Shown here in pieces: positions 1,041 to 9,830 of a stretch of DNA of 64,000 bases (the stretch's first letter is position 1; the number at the start of each line of letters is the position of its first letter). Source of the DNA: Halarcobacter mediterraneus. Lineage in GTDB: Bacteria > Campylobacterota > Campylobacteria > Campylobacterales > Arcobacteraceae. A model generated the notes under the pieces. The model searched no databases. It saw only the letters and a program-made list of their open reading frames with translations, and was not told where the DNA came from. The translations under genes were made by a program, and so were the position numbers. Where the stretch lies: contig NZ_NXIE01000002.1 of NCBI RefSeq assembly GCF_004116625.1, positions 558,001 to 622,000 on the forward strand. The letters are read 5' to 3'.

Positions 1041-1057
1041 TAAATATTTCCTTTTTT
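1029..1057 (+). terminator. Hairpin between convergent fliM and pyrC
   Basis: A GGAAA...TTTCC stem with one bulged A, extended by TATT/AATA, overlaps the fliM stop region and is followed by six T on the plus strand. It sits between the convergent 3' ends of fliM and pyrC and could end transcription from fliM. The bulge lowers confidence. Confidence 0.5.
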
Positions 1058-2090
1058 AATCTCTTTTATCTTCTATTGAAGATATGCTCCAATTTAGAAC
1101 TTCTCCTGCATACATAGGAACTACATCCTCACCTTTAAACTTATATGATGAAGGAACTACAAACTTCTTCTTTTCTAATTTTACTTTTTTATTTAATGGT
1201 TTGAAATCATAAATCTTTTGTGCATTTAAACTAATAAAAGCATTTAAATTATCTAAAGAGTTGTTTTCTTCAAATAATTGCGTTAATACTTGTAAGGCAA
1301 TAGGTGAAGTAAATACTCCAGCAGCACAGCCACAACACTCTTTTTTATGTTTTGGATGGGGGGCAGAATCACTTCCAAACATTAATTTTGGATGAGCTTT
1401 AAGTGCAGCATTTAATAAAGCATCTCTATCTTCTGGTCTTTTTGCAATTGGTTTACAAAATAAATGAGGGCTTAACATACCTCCTGCAACATCATCAAGA
1501 GTAATCAATAAATGATGTAATGTAACCGTTGCATAAAGATTATCATATTTATCAAGTAACTCAATTGCATCTTTTGTTGTAATATGTTCCATAATAATTT
1601 TTAAATCAGGGAAAGATGATGCAATTGATTCATAAATAGGCATAAATTCTTTTTCTCTATCCATTACAAAACCATTTGTTTCACCATGAATACAAAGAGG
1701 AATACCTAATTTACTCATTGACTCTAATGTTGGTCTTAAAACCTCAACATCCATTGAAGATACTCCTGTTTCAGAATTTGTAGTAATTCCAGCAGGATAT
1801 AATTTTATAGCAATAATATCATCTTTTATATCTTCTAAAAAAGAATATGAGTAATCATTTTGGAAAAAAAGTGTAACATAAGGTTCAAATTTATCCTCAA
1901 TACACGCTTCTTTTATTCTTTTTTTATAAGATAATAATGCTTCTTTTGTTGTAATAGGTGGTACTAAATTTGGCATAACTAAAGCACCACTAAAAGTTTC
2001 AGATGTTAAAGGACCAACTAATTTTAGCATATCACCATCACGTAAGTGAAGGTGCATATCTAAAGCAGAATCTATTTCAAATGTATCCAT
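1056..2090 (-). CDS. pyrC: Dihydroorotase (class II, PyrC)
   Basis: Converts carbamoyl-aspartate to dihydroorotate, the third step of pyrimidine synthesis, in the cytoplasm. The protein is about 344 residues, the normal length for E. coli-type PyrC. Visible metal and active-site motifs are [10 protein letters not shown] (HxHxR) near the N-terminus, the lysine of AIKLYPAG that is carbamylated in this family, LCIHGE, TLHH and the catalytic Asp in GSDSAPH. I place the start at the ATG at 2090, one base after the stop of the upstream PII gene, which suggests translational coupling. A longer frame exists from a GTG at 2117 but would overlap the PII gene. It is the last gene of amtB-glnB-pyrC, so pyrimidine synthesis may be partly co-transcribed with ammonium uptake. 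Confidence 0.93.
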
Positions 2091-2091
2091 A

Positions 2092-2451
<360 letters not shown>

Positions 2452-2491: not shown

Positions 2492-3679
2492 CTAAAATGC
2501 TCGTTTAAATTCAGGGTAAGCTTCTAGTCCACACTCTTCAACATCAAGTCCTTGCATTTCTTCATCATTATGAGCCCTTAGTGGTGCTATTTTATTTATC
2601 AAAAATAAAATAAGATATGAAACAACAAAAGCAAAAATCGCAACTACTATTACACCTTTTAATTGACCTAAAAAGGTAATATCTTCACCATTTGAAGCAA
2701 AAATTCCTACTGCCAATGTTCCCCAAATACCATTTAATAGATGAACCGATAATGCACCTACGGGATCATCAAGTTTTAATTTATCAAAAAATGATACACC
2801 AAAAACAACAAGTGCTCCACCAATTGAACCAATTAAAATAGGCGTATAAATATCATATAAATCTGGTCCTGCAGTGATTGCTACTAATCCACCTAAAGCA
2901 CCATTTAATACCATTGTAATATCAAGTTTCTTATATCTAAAATACATAAAAGCCCCAACAATAATTGCACCTGACAGACCTGCTGTATTTGTATTCATTA
3001 TAGTTAAAGCAACTAAATCTGCATTTTCTTTTGAAGCAATAGAACCAACACTTCCACCATTAAATCCAAACCATCCTATCCATAAAAGAAAAGCACCTAA
3101 TGTAACTAAAGGAATATTTGAAGCAGGAATTACTCTAACTCCTCCTTCTTTTGGATATCTTCCACGTCTTGCTCCAATAATTAAAATTGCAGCTAATAAC
3201 GCCCATCCTCCAGTGGAATGAATAACAGTTGAACCAGCTAAATCATACATTGTTAAATCTAAAAGTGTCCCAGCTAACATATCACTACCCCATGACCAAT
3301 TTACTATTACAGGGTAAATAAACCCTCCCATAATCACAGTAAACAAAGCTAAAGGTAAAACTTTCGCTCTTTCACTAACTCCTCCAGACATTATATTAAT
3401 TGCTTTACCCACAAATGCCATTTGAAAAAGAAATGCTGCCCATTTTGACATAGAATCACTTCCAAAATCTCCAAAAGCAATTGAATATCCAATAAGTAAA
3501 AATGCTAAAGATGCAATTGCATATATCATAGTATTTACCATTAATACTGCTGTAACATTTTTTGTTCTAACAAGTCCTGCCTCAAGCATAGCAAAACCAG
3601 GAACCATAAAAATGATTAATGTCATTGAAAAGATTGCAAAAAACGTGTCTATCACATAGCTGATTGATTGTAAGTCCAT
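2492..3679 (-). CDS. amtB: Ammonium transporter (Amt family, copy 1)
   Basis: A 395-residue polytopic inner-membrane ammonium channel with about 11 hydrophobic segments. Family features seen include an N-terminal segment with GFAMLEAGLVR, a STVIHSTGGWALLAA helix carrying the first pore His, LWIGWFGFNGGS, and DDPVGALSVHLLNGIWGTLAVG carrying the second pore His. The short C-terminal tail ends near GLEAYPEF, as in the paralog. The ATG is preceded by AGGAAGG. The promoter region carries the TGTATA-N5-TATACA repeat at 3748-3764. It heads a likely operon with glnB and pyrC. No signal peptide is obvious, which is common for this subfamily. Confidence 0.95.
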   Translation of the reverse strand: MDLQSISYVIDTFFAIFSMTLIIFMVPGFAMLEAGLVRTKNVTAVLMVNTMIYAIASLAFLLIGYSIAFGDFGSDSMSKWAAFLFQMAFVGKAINIMSGGVSERAKVLPLALFTVIMGGFIYPVIVNWSWGSDMLAGTLLDLTMYDLAGSTVIHSTGGWALLAAILIIGARRGRYPKEGGVRVIPASNIPLVTLGAFLLWIGWFGFNGGSVGSIASKENADLVALTIMNTNTAGLSGAIIVGAFMYFRYKKLDITMVLNGALGGLVAITAGPDLYDIYTPILIGSIGGALVVFGVSFFDKLKLDDPVGALSVHLLNGIWGTLAVGIFASNGEDITFLGQLKGVIVVAIFAFVVSYLILFLINKIAPLRAHNDEEMQGLDVEECGLEAYPEFKRAF

Positions 3680-3709: not shown

Positions 3710-3764
3710 ATTATATATTTTTTAAAAAGTTTAATATAGGTATAGTATGTATAAAAACTATACA
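3710..3764 (-). promoter_or_regulatory. amtB copy 1 promoter with TGTATA-N5-TATACA site
   Basis: On the minus strand a TATAAT lies at 3715-3710, 31 bases before the amtB start. Upstream at 3748-3764 is the inverted repeat TGTATA-N5-TATACA. The gap from repeat to -10 is 32 bases and its centre is near -53, a typical activator position. The same repeat occurs at 5454-5470 and 5603-5619. The repeat is seen directly; its role as a nitrogen-control site is inferred. Confidence 0.6.
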
Positions 3765-3779
3765 GTAAGTTAAGTTTTC

Positions 3780-3814: not shown

Positions 3815-4168
<354 letters not shown>

Positions 4169-4171
4169 CTA

Positions 4172-5386
4172 TTATGCTTTTTTGAATTCAGGATAACACT
4201 CTAGACCAGTTTCATGAATATCAAGTCCAGTAATTTCCGTTTCTTCATCAACTCTTAATCCAACAATCATATCTAGGATTTTCCATATAATAAATGAAGT
4301 GATAAATACAAATGCACCAATTACAACTATACCTTTAATTTGTGCTAGTATTGTAACTTCAGGGTTAAAAATACCTACAGCTAATGTTCCCCAAATACCA
4401 GCAACTAAGTGAACTGATAAGGCACCAACTGGATCATCAATTTTTAACTTATCGAAGAAAGGAACTGCAAAGACAACTAATGCACCACCAACTATACCTT
4501 CAATAAATGCAACTAACATCCCTAAGTCAGGTCCTGCTGTACAAGATACAAGTCCTGCTAAAGCACCATTTAATACCATTGTTAAATCAACTTTTTTATA
4601 AAGAAGTTGAGTTAAAATTGCTGCCATAACTGCACCTGCTGCTGCTGCCATATTTGTATCAGCAACTACTAAAGCGATACCATCAATATCAGCTTTTGAA
4701 CCTAATGCTAACTGAGAACCACCATTAAATCCAAACCATCCCATCCATAAAATGAATGTACCTAATGTAGCAAGAGTTAAGTTAGAACCAGGAATTGGTC
4801 TTACTTTACCATCTTTAGTATATTTTCCTTTTCTAGCACCTAAAATTAAAACACCAGCTAATGCAGCCCATCCACCAACAGAGTGAACAATTGTTGAACC
4901 AGCAAAATCAGAAAAACCTGCAATTAAACCACCTAATTCAGATCCTCCCCATGTCCAGTGACCTTGAATTGGATAAATAACACCACTTAAAACTACAACA
5001 AAGATTAAAAATGGCCATAACTTCATTCTTTCTGCAATTGTTCCTGAAATAACAGAAGCTGCAGTTGCTACAAACATAACTTGGAAAAAGAAGTCTGCTG
5101 CTGCAGGATATGAAGCATCTGCTGCACTTTCCATACTAATAGTTGAGAAACTTCCCATAAATGATGAACCATCACCATACATTAAATTGTAACCTACAAA
5201 ATAATACATAATACAAGAAATAGAAAACAATGCAATATTTTTTGTTAAAACCGTTGCATTATTTTTTGATCTTGTTAGACCAGACTCTAGCATAGCAAAA
5301 CCTGCTGCCATCCACATAACTAATACACCAGAAAATACAAATAGAAAACCATCTAATATGTATTTTAAGTCATTAAAATTTTCCAT
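4172..5386 (-). CDS. amtB: Ammonium transporter (Amt family, copy 2)
   Basis: A 404-residue Amt channel paralogous to 2492-3679. Shared family segments include GFAMLESGLTRSKN, STIVHSVGGWAALAG with the first pore His, LWMGWFGFNGGSQL, and DDPVGALSVHLVAGIWGTLAVG with the second. The C-terminal tail (GLDIHETGLECYPEF) matches the other copy. I choose the ATG at 5386, six bases after AGGA; a frame extension to a TTG at 5401 would start inside that ribosome-binding site. It is first in an amtB-glnK operon with its own promoter and a TGTATA-N5-TATACA site. Two Amt copies suggest different affinities or partners, which cannot be told from sequence. Confidence 0.95.
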   Translation of the reverse strand: MENFNDLKYILDGFLFVFSGVLVMWMAAGFAMLESGLTRSKNNATVLTKNIALFSISCIMYYFVGYNLMYGDGSSFMGSFSTISMESAADASYPAAADFFFQVMFVATAASVISGTIAERMKLWPFLIFVVVLSGVIYPIQGHWTWGGSELGGLIAGFSDFAGSTIVHSVGGWAALAGVLILGARKGKYTKDGKVRPIPGSNLTLATLGTFILWMGWFGFNGGSQLALGSKADIDGIALVVADTNMAAAAGAVMAAILTQLLYKKVDLTMVLNGALAGLVSCTAGPDLGMLVAFIEGIVGGALVVFAVPFFDKLKIDDPVGALSVHLVAGIWGTLAVGIFNPEVTILAQIKGIVVIGAFVFITSFIIWKILDMIVGLRVDEETEITGLDIHETGLECYPEFKKA

Positions 5387-5416: not shown

Positions 5417-5470
5417 ATTCTAACAGATAAAAAAACTAAATAGTCAAAATATATGTATATTTTATATACA
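5417..5470 (-). promoter_or_regulatory. amtB copy 2 promoter with TGTATA-N5-TATACA site
   Basis: On the minus strand an extended -10 (TGTTAGAAT, 5425-5417) is preceded by TTGACT (5447-5442) at a long 19-base spacer. The inverted repeat TGTATA-N5-TATACA is at 5454-5470, 31 bases from the -10 and centred near -52, nearly the same geometry as for the other amtB. Motifs are seen directly; the regulatory role is inferred. Confidence 0.6.
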
Positions 5471-5602
5471 AGACAAGATTAAAAAGTATATTGATTTATA
5501 CTCGAAGATCCCGGTAAATAATAACTTGAACTTACTTTTATTTTTTGTTAAATTTTTTTATTTTTTTTGCTAAATTTAACATCTTAATATTTTTTACATA
5601 AT

Positions 5603-5646
5603 TGTATACTTTTTATACAATGGTTTTTTTTATTCTATGTTATAAT
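5603..5646 (+). promoter_or_regulatory. Promoter of sensor-regulator-glnD operon with TGTATA-N5-TATACA site
   Basis: The inverted repeat TGTATA-N5-TATACA (5603-5619, extendable by one pair on each side) precedes an extended -10 TGTTATAAT (5638-5646). The start codon at 5666 is preceded by TAGGAG. The repeat-to-minus-10 gap is 21 bases, about one helical turn shorter than at the two amtB promoters, placing the repeat near -42. The remaining bases of 5387-5665 show no gene and no further clear site. Confidence 0.6.
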
Positions 5647-5665: not shown

Positions 5666-6526
5666 ATGAAAGAGTATCTAGAGGTATATATTCAAAATCA
5701 AGACAAAATAGAAACTTTTATAGAAGAGAGTTTAAATAAATTAGGTGAAATAAAAAAGCACGAAAGAACTAAATTTAAAACCCTTTTTAAAATATTCCCT
5801 TCATTGGAACTTGTTTATATAGTAAATAAAGATACAAAAACTCAAAGCTCTTCAAACTATTATAGATACAAAGAAGATATAACAGAAAAAGATATACCAA
5901 GGGACTATATACTGTCAAAACTTCATTTTAAAGAAAACTGTAAAGTTGCATTTAGCTCAGTATATATAAGTAGTGCAACAAAACATAATTGCGTTACTGT
6001 TTCAATAAAAGAAGGCAATGATATTATATTTTTTGATTTCAAAATTGAAAGTTTACTTGAGAGATTAAGCTTAATTGAATTAAATAAGCCTTTTCATACG
6101 CTTACTAAAGCTTTTTATATAATAGCAGGATATACGATGTTTTTTCTTGCAATTTTTATTATTTTTTACTCAATTTATGATTTTGCCCATTCATTTTTAA
6201 TAAAAGGGATTTTTGACTTAGATACAGTTTTCAAACCTGTTATTGCTCTTACTTTAGGTGTTGCAATTTTTGATTTAGCAAAGACTATTTTAGAGCAAGA
6301 AGTTTACTTTAAAAGCTATTCAAAGAATTCTAAAGTTGAGACAAAAATGATAACAAAGTTTTTAATATCTATTATTATAGCTTTATCAATTGAAGCGTTA
6401 ATGGTTGTATTTAAAATAGCTCTAAGTGATTATGATAAAATGATAAATGCTTTATATCTAATAACTGGTATATCTTTAATATTAATCGCTTTATCAGTAT
6501 TTATACATATTACAAAAAAGAAATAA
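5666..6526 (+). CDS. PDC-like sensor domain membrane protein of unknown function
   Basis: A 286-residue protein. Residues ~20-145 look like the PDC/Cache fold used by bacterial sensors: LELVYIVNKDT, then YYRYKEDI...RDYILSKLHF, then VYISSATKHNCVTVSIKEG. About four hydrophobic segments follow at ~153-175, ~192-210, ~228-250 and ~262-282, with no kinase or methyl-accepting output domain. There is no N-terminal signal, so the sensor-like domain is predicted cytoplasmic or exposed by an unusual topology. It is the first gene of an operon with the NtrC-like regulator (18 bases downstream) and glnD, so it may feed a signal into nitrogen control. That link is inference from position. The PDC call rests on pattern recognition only. 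Confidence 0.75.
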   Translation: MKEYLEVYIQNQDKIETFIEESLNKLGEIKKHERTKFKTLFKIFPSLELVYIVNKDTKTQSSSNYYRYKEDITEKDIPRDYILSKLHFKENCKVAFSSVYISSATKHNCVTVSIKEGNDIIFFDFKIESLLERLSLIELNKPFHTLTKAFYIIAGYTMFFLAIFIIFYSIYDFAHSFLIKGIFDLDTVFKPVIALTLGVAIFDLAKTILEQEVYFKSYSKNSKVETKMITKFLISIIIALSIEALMVVFKIALSDYDKMINALYLITGISLILIALSVFIHITKKK

Positions 6527-6544
6527 AAGTTAATAAGGAAAATT

Positions 6545-7303
6545 ATGGAAAATTATATTGCAAAATCTAAGAACTCAAAAGAAATACTAAACTCTGCTCA
6601 CCTTCTTCAAAGTGTGAAAATAAATGCTTTGATTTATGGTGATAGTGGTGTAGGGAAAAAGTCCTTAGCAAAATATATTTTACCTAATGCTAGAGTATTT
6701 AAGGCTAAAAATCTTCAACAAGATATTAGTGATAATATAATTTCTATACAAGATACTGCAATTATAATTGATAAAATTGAGAATATAACAAATATAGAAC
6801 TTCTTGTAAAGTGGATAAATGAAAATAATATTAGAGTTGTAGCTACTACTTTAAAACAAGACTTAAACTCCAAACTAACAGAACTATTTTCAATTACTAT
6901 AGAGCTACCTGAATTAAAAGATAGAGAAGAAGATGTAAAGGAATTGATTAATAAGTTTTCTTCAGAAGCAAGTAAAACTTTAGATTTACCCTCTATTTCA
7001 TCAAATAAACTTATGGTAAATATTTCTAATAATGCCCATAGTCTTAGAAAGTCTATATATTTTTCTTATCTTTTTGAAACAATAGGAGAAGATGAAATTT
7101 TAATGTTTATGGAAAACTATATGTTTTCAAATATGCAAGGAGAAACTTCATATAAAGATTTTATATATTTATTTGAAGTTCCTTTATTAAAAGCTGCAAC
7201 TAAAAAATATAAATCTCAAGTTCAGATGGCTAAACATCTAGGTTTAAATAGAATTACTCTTAGAAAAAAACTTGATATACATAAGGTTTATTTAAATGAC
7301 TGA
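6545..7303 (+). CDS. Reduced NtrC-like regulator: AAA+ remnant with Fis-type HTH
   Basis: A 252-residue protein. A Walker A motif GDSGVGKKS is near residue 33 and a Walker B-like AIIIDKIENI near 75, where the usual DE pair is altered to DK. The ELPELKDREEDV segment matches the region of sigma-54 activators before sensor II. The C-terminus (QVQMAKHLGLNRITLRKKL) is a Fis-type helix-turn-helix. There is no receiver domain and no GAFTGA loop, the loop that contacts sigma-54, so classic sigma-54 activation seems impossible. It overlaps glnD by 8 bases. Fis-type domains of NtrC bind 6-5-6 dyads, the same layout as the TGTATA-N5-TATACA repeats nearby, making this a candidate binder. Function is unproven. 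Confidence 0.78.
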   Translation: MENYIAKSKNSKEILNSAHLLQSVKINALIYGDSGVGKKSLAKYILPNARVFKAKNLQQDISDNIISIQDTAIIIDKIENITNIELLVKWINENNIRVVATTLKQDLNSKLTELFSITIELPELKDREEDVKELINKFSSEASKTLDLPSISSNKLMVNISNNAHSLRKSIYFSYLFETIGEDEILMFMENYMFSNMQGETSYKDFIYLFEVPLLKAATKKYKSQVQMAKHLGLNRITLRKKLDIHKVYLND

Positions 7304-9830
7304 ATTAAATATCCAAATTGAAGAACTTATATCTGAAAAAGCAGAAGACTTTGAAATTTCAAAAGTATTTAGAAATCATTTTAAATCTTATGTTGCCTCT
7401 ATTGATTCTGTTTTAGAGACAACAGGAGGAAAAGATTTTTTTGTAAAACATACAAAACATACAGATAAGTTCTTAATCCAATTATACAAATATATATTAA
7501 GAAAACATTTTGGCGATTATCAACCAATGAGTACTTCAATTCCTATTACATTAATTGCATTAGGAAGTTATGGAAGAGAACAACTTTGCATTTATTCTGA
7601 TGTTGATTTATTAATTTTATATGAGGAAATACAAGGATATAACTTAAAAGTTATAATGGAGGAACTTGTAACCTTAGCTTGGGATTGTGGTTTAAAACTA
7701 GGTTCAAGAGTACATGAGATAAAAGAAATAGATTCTTCTGTAAAAGAGGATATAACTATAAAGTCTTCAATTTTAGAATCAAGAATGATTTATGGTTCAA
7801 AACATTTATGGTTTTCGTATCAAAATATCTTAAAAAAAATAAGAAAAACAAATCAAAAAGAGTTTGTCTTAGAAAAGCTTGAGGAACATAAAAAACGACT
7901 TTTAAAATATCCTTTAAAGATGGAACCAAATATTAAAGATGGTTTTGGAGGGATGAGAGAAGCAAATATGATTTTCTGGATGGCTACGATATCTTATGGA
8001 GTTAATGATATAAGACAATTAATAAATATAAGTTTCTCTGAAGAAGAATATAAAAGGTATAGAAGTGCCTTAGAATTTATATTTAGAGTTAGAAACTATT
8101 TGCATAGTATTTCAAAAAAGAAACTTGATATTGTAAACTTTGATGTTTTACCTGAACTTAGTTCTAAAATGGGCTTTAAAAATAGACCTCGACTAACAAA
8201 AGAGAGGCAGTGTATGTCTAAATTATTAGAATCACTTCATCGTGTACACTTTTTCTCAACTATTATGGTTAAAAAATTTACAAGAAAAATTCTTTTTGAA
8301 AAAGAAAATATTGCAAAACTTAGAAAATATAGATTTAAAAAAAATTTATATATTTATGATAATAGATTATATACCTCTTTTAATGCAAAACCAAAAACAT
8401 TAAATGCCTTATTAAAGGAACTAATTTCTTTACCAAAAAATGTAAAACATTTTGACCGTTCATATATAGAGTATGCAAGAAAAACAAAGTTACCTACAAA
8501 ACAAACAAAAGAGTTAAAAAGAATTATTAAACAACTTCTTTATAAAAACAATCTATATCCAATTATAAAGTTGATTTATAATGCAAGATTATTTCAAACA
8601 GTATTACCTGTTACAAAAAAGATAGTAAATCAACCACAATTTGACGGATATCATCAACATCCTGTTGATGTTCATTCTATTAAGACACTAAAAATGCTTG
8701 ATAATATAAAAGATGATTATGTAAAAAAAATATTTGATTCTTTTGATGATAAGGAAAAAACTATTGTGAGACTTGCTTGTTTATTTCATGATGTAGGAAA
8801 AGGAAGAGTTACAGATCATCATATTGCTGGAGAAAAATTATTTAAAAATATGATGACTTCTTTTGATTTAGATAAAATACATATTCAACTAGGTAGTTTA
8901 CTTGTTAGAAACCATAATATGATGAGTAAAGTTGCTTCAAGTGAAGATATTTATTCAGAAAAAGTAATCCTTGCTTTTACTGCACTACTTAAAACACGTC
9001 TAGCACTAAAAATGTTGTATGTAGTGACTTATGCGGATATTTCAGCAGTAGGAGATTCTGTTTATAAAAGTTCAACAGCTTCTTTACTAAAACAATTATA
9101 TTTACAAGCTTTACCTGCATTTGAGAACACTCCACTATTAAGTGAGAATGCTAGAAGAATTGCAAAACAAAATAGAATAAAACAGTTAAAAAAATATAAA
9201 GAACTTTCAAATCTAATGAAAAAAAAGATCACATATATTGCCTCTAATCAGATGTTCTTAAAATGTAAAGCAGATGAAATACTTGATATTGCACTAAGAG
9301 CATATGAAGTAAAAGATTTCTCATATAAAATAATAAATAAAGACCAACTATCAATTAAAATCATTAGAAAAATACCTTTAAATTTAGCTTTTCTATTAGG
9401 GAAACTCGAATTCTTAAATATTTCTACAATGAATATATTTAAACTTTATGATGAAAAGAAATTTTTTGAAATAAATTTTTCTGAAAAAGTAGATGATGAA
9501 GATATTCCACTTATAGAACAAATTATTGAAAACTCTTTTGATATGTCTAAAAAAACAAAATTATTAATCCCTGAAATTGATAAAAAAGGTATTGAAATCA
9601 ACTGTAACCATACTACATATTTAGCTTCAATGCAAGTTACAGCGAAAGACCAAAAAGGTTTATTTGCATATATTGCAAATGTTTTTGACGATTTTGATAT
9701 TGAAATAGAAACAGCAAAAGTTAGTTCAATAAAAGGTATGGCAAAAGATTTATTTTTGATTGAAAAAAATGGAAACTTTTGCGGTAAACAAGATGATATA
9801 ATTGAAAGTTTATCTACAAATAAAGAGTAA
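7296..9830 (+). CDS. glnD: PII uridylyltransferase / uridylyl-removing enzyme GlnD
   Basis: An 844-residue protein, the normal size for GlnD. Order of domains: a nucleotidyltransferase core near residues 85-110 with GSYGREQ and DVDLL (the GS...DxD signature), a GlnD-specific helical region, an HD hydrolase centred on HDVGKG near 497, and C-terminal ACT-type domains, the last at ~770-840, which sense glutamine. It adds UMP to Tyr51 of PII proteins when glutamine is low and removes it when glutamine is high; both PII proteins in this window keep Tyr51. It is translationally coupled to the NtrC-like gene upstream (8-base overlap). No residue loss is obvious in the two catalytic centres. Confidence 0.93.
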   Translation: MTELNIQIEELISEKAEDFEISKVFRNHFKSYVASIDSVLETTGGKDFFVKHTKHTDKFLIQLYKYILRKHFGDYQPMSTSIPITLIALGSYGREQLCIYSDVDLLILYEEIQGYNLKVIMEELVTLAWDCGLKLGSRVHEIKEIDSSVKEDITIKSSILESRMIYGSKHLWFSYQNILKKIRKTNQKEFVLEKLEEHKKRLLKYPLKMEPNIKDGFGGMREANMIFWMATISYGVNDIRQLINISFSEEEYKRYRSALEFIFRVRNYLHSISKKKLDIVNFDVLPELSSKMGFKNRPRLTKERQCMSKLLESLHRVHFFSTIMVKKFTRKILFEKENIAKLRKYRFKKNLYIYDNRLYTSFNAKPKTLNALLKELISLPKNVKHFDRSYIEYARKTKLPTKQTKELKRIIKQLLYKNNLYPIIKLIYNARLFQTVLPVTKKIVNQPQFDGYHQHPVDVHSIKTLKMLDNIKDDYVKKIFDSFDDKEKTIVRLACLFHDVGKGRVTDHHIAGEKLFKNMMTSFDLDKIHIQLGSLLVRNHNMMSKVASSEDIYSEKVILAFTALLKTRLALKMLYVVTYADISAVGDSVYKSSTASLLKQLYLQALPAFENTPLLSENARRIAKQNRIKQLKKYKELSNLMKKKITYIASNQMFLKCKADEILDIALRAYEVKDFSYKIINKDQLSIKIIRKIPLNLAFLLGKLEFLNISTMNIFKLYDEKKFFEINFSEKVDDEDIPLIEQIIENSFDMSKKTKLLIPEIDKKGIEINCNHTTYLASMQVTAKDQKGLFAYIANVFDDFDIEIETAKVSSIKGMAKDLFLIEKNGNFCGKQDDIIESLSTNKE

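Follow-up and report, generated by a model that had tools for sequence, protein, structure and literature searches.

NtrC proteins in nitrogen control

The closest described counterparts of the regulator treated here are the NtrC proteins of Rhodobacter capsulatus and Caulobacter, NtrC-derived proteins that lack GAFTGA, act at sigma-70 promoters and govern a nitrogen regulon with glnA and PII genes (PMC10274813). The Caulobacter NtrC motif also resembles that of Fis (PMC10274813). VpsR of Vibrio cholerae has the fold of a bacterial enhancer-binding protein (bEBP) and, as cited in PMC10274813, acts with sigma-70. In NifL-NifA of Azotobacter vinelandii, a PAS/GHKL partner acts on the bEBP by contact, and NifL is itself subject to GlnK through its GHKL domain (PMC9866876). 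The protein discussed here, called REG, is encoded at 6545-7303 (+ strand) of a 64,000-nucleotide stretch (the window) of contig NZ_NXIE01000002.1 of Halarcobacter mediterraneus. REG is apparently an NtrC-derived protein that works as a nitrogen master regulator, yet without the defining features of NtrC proper. Judged from sequence comparison, it is likely to fill this role in H. mediterraneus and most Campylobacterales, acting at sigma-70 promoters together with a partner composed of a PAS and a kinase-type catalytic and ATP-binding (CA) domain, the PAS-CA protein. A description of a REG-type regulator was not found in the open-access literature, nor was one of the control of nitrogen assimilation in Campylobacterota.

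REG is a 252 aa protein with an AAA+ domain from its start and a Fis-like helix-turn-helix (HTH; KSQVQMAKHLGLNRITLRKKL) at its end. It matches the Pfam model Sigma54_activ_2 (E 4e-6) and Fis-type HTH models. Its top NCBIfam model is ntrC (TIGR01818; E 9.5e-11, 41.1 bits), whose curated cut-off of 558.6 is not reached. The original prediction had described a regulator with Walker A and a Fis-type HTH, an altered Walker B and neither receiver nor GAFTGA loop; open reading frame (ORF), profiles and an alignment of 37 homologues bear this out. In Walker A, G32 and G37 are found in all 37 homologues and K38 in 36. At the Walker B Glu position none carries Glu (K in 15, N in 12, D in 4, H in 3, R in 2, C in 1), and the Walker B Asp is present in just 19. 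ORF reading and Pfam scan revealed no receiver domain with a phosphorylatable Asp. The AlphaFold model (mean pLDDT 90) superposes on bEBP AAA+ domains (FlrC, Z 16.9; NtrC4, 16.8; NtrC1, 16.7; VpsR, 15.8; NifA, 14.0). A GAFTGA segment is absent from the homologue alignment and from this confident model.

The known systems differ from REG in several respects. The NtrC proteins of R. capsulatus and Caulobacter keep a receiver with a phosphorylated Asp and a true NtrB kinase (PMC10274813), whereas REG has no receiver and its partner no conserved His. The AAA+ domain of the R. capsulatus protein has to bind ATP and that of the Caulobacter protein depends on intact Walker motifs (PMC10274813), while REG lacks the Walker B Glu. 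VpsR has a receiver-like N-terminal domain, binds c-di-GMP and serves another regulon. NifA, unlike REG, works as a genuine sigma-54 activator and carries a GAF domain, and NifL, with two PAS domains and an H domain, is larger than the PAS-CA protein. Fis shares nearly the same recognition helix (NRxTLRKK) with REG, its 15-bp core has the same geometry, and the REG profile matches Fis chains. Fis differs in being a global nucleoid protein without an AAA+ domain, whereas the predicted regulon of REG is narrow.

In the window, REG is the middle one of three open ORFs on the + strand. It is preceded at a distance of 18 bp by the first gene of the operon, which encodes a membrane protein of 286 aa (5666-6526) that matches no family above cut-off; its earlier 'PDC-like' label is not established because the match to dCache_1 reaches only E 0.093. 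Downstream, REG overlaps by 8 bp with glnD (7296-9830; 844 aa), so that the coupling of both genes holds as first described. GlnD, the PII uridylyltransferase/uridylyl-removing enzyme, is confirmed by its Pfam domains GlnD_UR_UTase (PF08335, 2.6e-26) and HD (PF01966, 3.3e-7), and scores 358.5 bits against the TIGR01693 equivalog, under its cut-off of 519.4.

The operator palindrome and its promoters

A palindrome was first suspected on reading the region between amtB1 and the REG operon. The window holds three exact copies of its core, TGTATA-N5-TATACA (3748, 5454, 5603), whereas 100 shuffles yielded none. Across all 2.83 Mb of the genome the count rises to four: two sites lie between amtB1 and the REG operon, one lies at amtB2 and one 83 bp upstream of glnA. 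The chance that random placement would bring all four sites into the 1.2 kb of target promoter sequence is about 3e-14, a rough scale only because the targets were picked after the sites had been seen. The spacer is strict: pooled over Arcobacteraceae loci, 5 nt gave 40 matches, and no other length between 0 and 15 gave more than one. A genome scan that allowed three mismatches was uninformative (1109 matches per strand). The core of Fis sites has the geometry G-NN-YR-NN-W-NN-YR-NN-C, and the palindrome fits it.

Each predicted operator in the window is accompanied by a predicted -10 box. The operator of the membrane protein-REG-glnD operon, TTGTATACTTTTTATACAA, has perfect palindrome arms (5602-5620), and its centre lies 30 bp from an extended -10 (TGTTATAAT, 5641-5646, + strand). 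The operator of amtB1-glnK1 (ATGTATATTTTATATACAA on the + strand, 5453-5471) is centred 40 bp from the amtB1 -10 (TGTTAGAAT, 5417-5422, - strand). At amtB2-glnK2, the operator (3747-3765, core TGTATAAAAACTATACA at 3748-3764) is centred 41 bp from the -10 TATAAT (3710-3715, - strand). The same distances recur in relatives. Of 43 glnA promoters of Arcobacteraceae, 34 show 40 or 41 bp, as do most amtB promoters, while the REG operon of some relatives has 30 bp. Therefore, the operator would be centred at about -52 or -42, on a single helix face. At glnA and amtB, about 31 bp separate its end from the -10 downstream, which leaves the core promoter free. Together, helix face and position favour activation, although they are not proof of it.

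The same operators might instead be used by REG as a repressor that shuts nitrogen genes at high ammonium and is relieved by the PAS-CA protein or PII. At the REG operon, where only 30 bp separate the operator centre from the -10, the operator would overlap the -35 region, and bEBPs without GAFTGA can both repress and activate, as Caulobacter NtrC does (PMC10274813). The position of the glnA and amtB operators clear of the core promoter argues against repression, as does the distance, which is fixed at 40-41 bp or, in a variant, at 30 bp, in the helical-turn manner that is typical of activators. Repression is therefore considered improbable.

REG combines two features of the sigma-70-dependent bEBPs that lack GAFTGA, the missing segment itself and a predicted operator at promoters that appear sigma-70-like, a class assigned from -10 sequences only. 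That REG could be a normal sigma-54 activator in which a GAFTGA-like loop is hidden might be suggested by its AAA+ fold, which is close to that of bEBPs, and by the presence of RpoN in many Campylobacterota other than Arcobacter (PMC9321776). This is extremely unlikely: the loop is seen in neither alignment nor confident model, the Walker B Glu is missing from all homologues, and the window promoters have sigma-70-like -10 boxes at fixed spacing. In agreement with the original prediction, which had seen no -24/-12 promoter before the amtB genes, GG-N10-GC is absent within 300 bp upstream of amtB1, amtB2 and the REG operon, and a sigma-54 promoter at these places was rejected. Among 70 glnA upstream regions, 14 contain GG-N10-GC, mostly far upstream and in a few cases across the -10 box. 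RpoN has been reported lost in all Arcobacter species (PMC9321776), and the genome paper on Arcobacter butzleri found NtrB/NtrC and RpoN missing (PMC2147049); for H. mediterraneus, the absence of RpoN rests on this literature.

Apart from the REG operon, the predicted target genes in the window lie on the - strand. The ammonium transporter genes amtB1 (4172-5386, ATG at 5386) and amtB2 (2492-3679), named from their sequences, are each followed by a PII gene, glnK1 (3815-4153) and glnK2 (2092-2430), both of which encode Tyr51. The amtB2-glnK2 operon seems to include a dihydroorotase-like gene as well, which overlaps the end of glnK2 (window 1056-2430); the order amtB2-glnK2-dihydroorotase-like gene recurs in loci L042 and L076.

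Distribution of REG, its operator and the PAS-CA protein

REG was found in 81 of 104 Arcobacteraceae genomes, and a profile search recovered it from 274 of 399 genomes of Campylobacterales, in almost every case as a single copy. In most Arcobacteraceae loci fetched, it adjoins glnD and/or sits close to amtB-glnK, even at 35-45% identity. Outside this family, where gene names were read from the sequences, REG has two kinds of neighbourhood. In one, it is encoded next to a PAS-like protein and sometimes also amtB/glnK; in the other, it closes a tol-pal operon, flanked by slyD and fabD. The latter placement is frequent, as in L190, L192-L196, L199-L201, L203, L204, L207 and L041.

The operator follows REG. 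Within Arcobacteraceae, a site upstream of glnA, counted when at least 12 of 14 positions match, is present in 43 of 48 REG-positive and 2 of 22 REG-negative genomes (p 6e-11, which, like the p value for the PAS protein below, overstates independence because the genomes are related). Several distinct genera are without REG (part of g2, g6 and one g9), and the glnA site is missing there too. Outside Arcobacteraceae, the operator takes the form TG[ACG]TTA-N5-TAA[CGT]CA. With the 5 nt spacer, glnA loci hold 14 matches to this form and REG/PAS loci 28; any other spacer gives at most one, and REG-negative loci outside the family have none. The recognition helix changes in parallel, from NRITLRKK in Arcobacteraceae to NRNTLRKK where the operator has the TG[ACG]TTA form; G113, which lies outside the family, combines the NRI helix with an operator of the TGTATA form.

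Two observations concern glnD itself. REG-negative genomes of genus g2 that keep glnD (G005, G007, G008, G009, G012, G014, G029, G031) have a divergent copy with 48-51% identity, whose matches start at residue 10-17 of the window protein. In G003 (C1:191595-194110, L076), glnD seems broken, with several in-frame stops between two partial matches, and REG is intact.

The second protein that travels with REG is the PAS-like protein of about 230 residues, found in 273 of the 399 Campylobacterales genomes. According to a count made by hand from the two presence lists, both proteins occur in 268 genomes, REG alone in 6, the PAS protein alone in 5 and neither in 120 (Fisher p 3e-87); the genomes with only one of them are mostly incomplete. 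In all 50 compared loci that hold both genes (a few being the same genome fetched twice), they lie next to each other on the same strand. G120 has them side by side on opposite strands, and in H. mediterraneus the PAS gene is unlinked to REG (C1:788350). By these comparisons, the conserved partner of REG is the PAS protein with a kinase-type CA fold, and not the membrane protein. The latter had been proposed as the sensor of REG and the three genes as a conserved operon. It was rejected as a constant partner since it is absent from or unlinked to REG in many REG-positive genomes, and the three-gene unit gave way to the pairing with the PAS-CA protein.

The model of the PAS protein has a pLDDT of 86, and its Foldseek matches are PAS histidine kinases. 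Residues 105-226 match kinase CA (GHKL) domains, with the CA domain of Escherichia coli NtrB (NRII; 1r62) at rank 1 (Z 13.8, root mean square deviation 2.9, 119 aligned). The CA domains of other kinases score within one Z unit of NtrB, so that the CA fold is clear and an NtrB ancestry just suggestive. Both proteins carry a PAS domain upstream of the CA domain. However, a conserved His is absent from the 16 aligned members of the PAS-CA protein, and its model lacks the helical hairpin of the dimerization and histidine phosphotransfer (DHp) domain. The PAS half is barely covered among the structural matches; Pfam found a PAS domain weakly in 3 of the 16 members, and a search of the PDB by sequence with the PAS profile returned nothing useful. 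From its model, the PAS-CA protein looks like an NtrB-type kinase that lost its His.

Besides the relatedness of the genomes and the close scores of other kinases, several findings weigh against REG as nitrogen regulator. In many families it lies in the tol-pal/fabD operon, away from nitrogen genes. The fragmented metagenome-assembled genomes G041 and G050 have the glnA site and no REG was found in them, while G070, G102 and G103 have REG and no clear glnA site. An NRI helix predicted blind for G120 was half right: the actual helix, NRATLTSKL (NRA), has neither N nor I at the variable position. The distance of REG from nitrogen genes and the G120 helix would suit a palindrome owned by another transcription factor, with REG co-inherited for a different job. 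This is even less probable than repression by REG, as the site tracks REG inside and outside Arcobacteraceae, stands before the REG operon itself, changes along with the recognition helix and has the Fis-type core geometry that one would expect for the REG HTH.

Predicted regulon and working model

Other species of the genus have extra operator copies upstream of urtA (urea ABC transporter), between nasA-like and nrtA-like nitrate assimilation genes, beside a FocA/NirC-type (FNT) transporter gene, in an allantoinase/racemase cluster and before genes for NMT1-like ABC binding proteins, all named from the adjacent protein sequences. Several further sites without a clear nitrogen link may be chance matches or sites of other regulators. 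The site TGTATACTSAGTATACA precedes the same kind of gene pair in two species (L296:1238, L299:1232) and is probably the palindrome of a different regulator. Operator-like sites conserved in two species each are found upstream of a gene for a signalling-like protein (L291:1213, L300:1212) and of a luciferase-like monooxygenase gene beside an ABC transporter (L295:1175, L303:1231); a nitrogen role is not evident for either.

As to mechanism, REG would have descended from NtrC, and its Fis-like HTH, presumably dimeric, would bind the palindrome, in H. mediterraneus TTGTATA-N5-TATACAA. Its targets would be the sigma-70 promoters of amtB-glnK, glnA and its own glnD operon, and in relatives those of genes for urea, nitrate and purine scavenging. 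REG may activate them from one DNA face, without sigma-54, receiver phosphorylation or ATP hydrolysis. We infer direct binding by REG, activation rather than repression and gating by PII, the latter probably like that of NifL-NifA, by analogy with which REG and the PAS-CA protein, known here from co-occurrence and adjacency, are modelled; the sigma-70-dependent NtrC of R. capsulatus and Caulobacter (PMC10274813) is the second precedent for this model. The signal would pass from GlnD to PII (GlnK/GlnB), from there to the PAS-CA protein and finally, by protein contact, to REG. When nitrogen is in excess, PII would be unmodified and act on the PAS-CA protein, which in turn would keep REG inactive by contact. 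Under nitrogen limitation, GlnD would uridylylate PII at Tyr51 and REG would be freed to activate its promoters, among them one that makes more REG and GlnD. We infer both the direction in which PII acts and that the PAS-CA protein inhibits REG instead of assisting it.

The core of the original prediction, nitrogen control rebuilt around a sigma-54-blind regulator at housekeeping promoters, is thus strongly supported by operator placement and spacing, by the tracking of REG and by the reported loss of RpoN (PMC9321776); its sensor and its conserved operon found no support. There is about an even chance that REG and the PAS-CA protein represent an NtrC/NtrB pair which shed all phosphotransfer and sigma-54 elements early in Campylobacterales and through which the order still governs its nitrogen regulon, by PII-gated contact at sigma-70 promoters. 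What is at stake is the nitrogen control of the Campylobacterota, which are abundant in sulfidic and vent habitats. One regulator, one operator, one partner and a predicted regulon make the question directly testable. If true, a two-component system would here have become, in nature, a switch that works by protein contact without phosphorylation and has retained its regulon.

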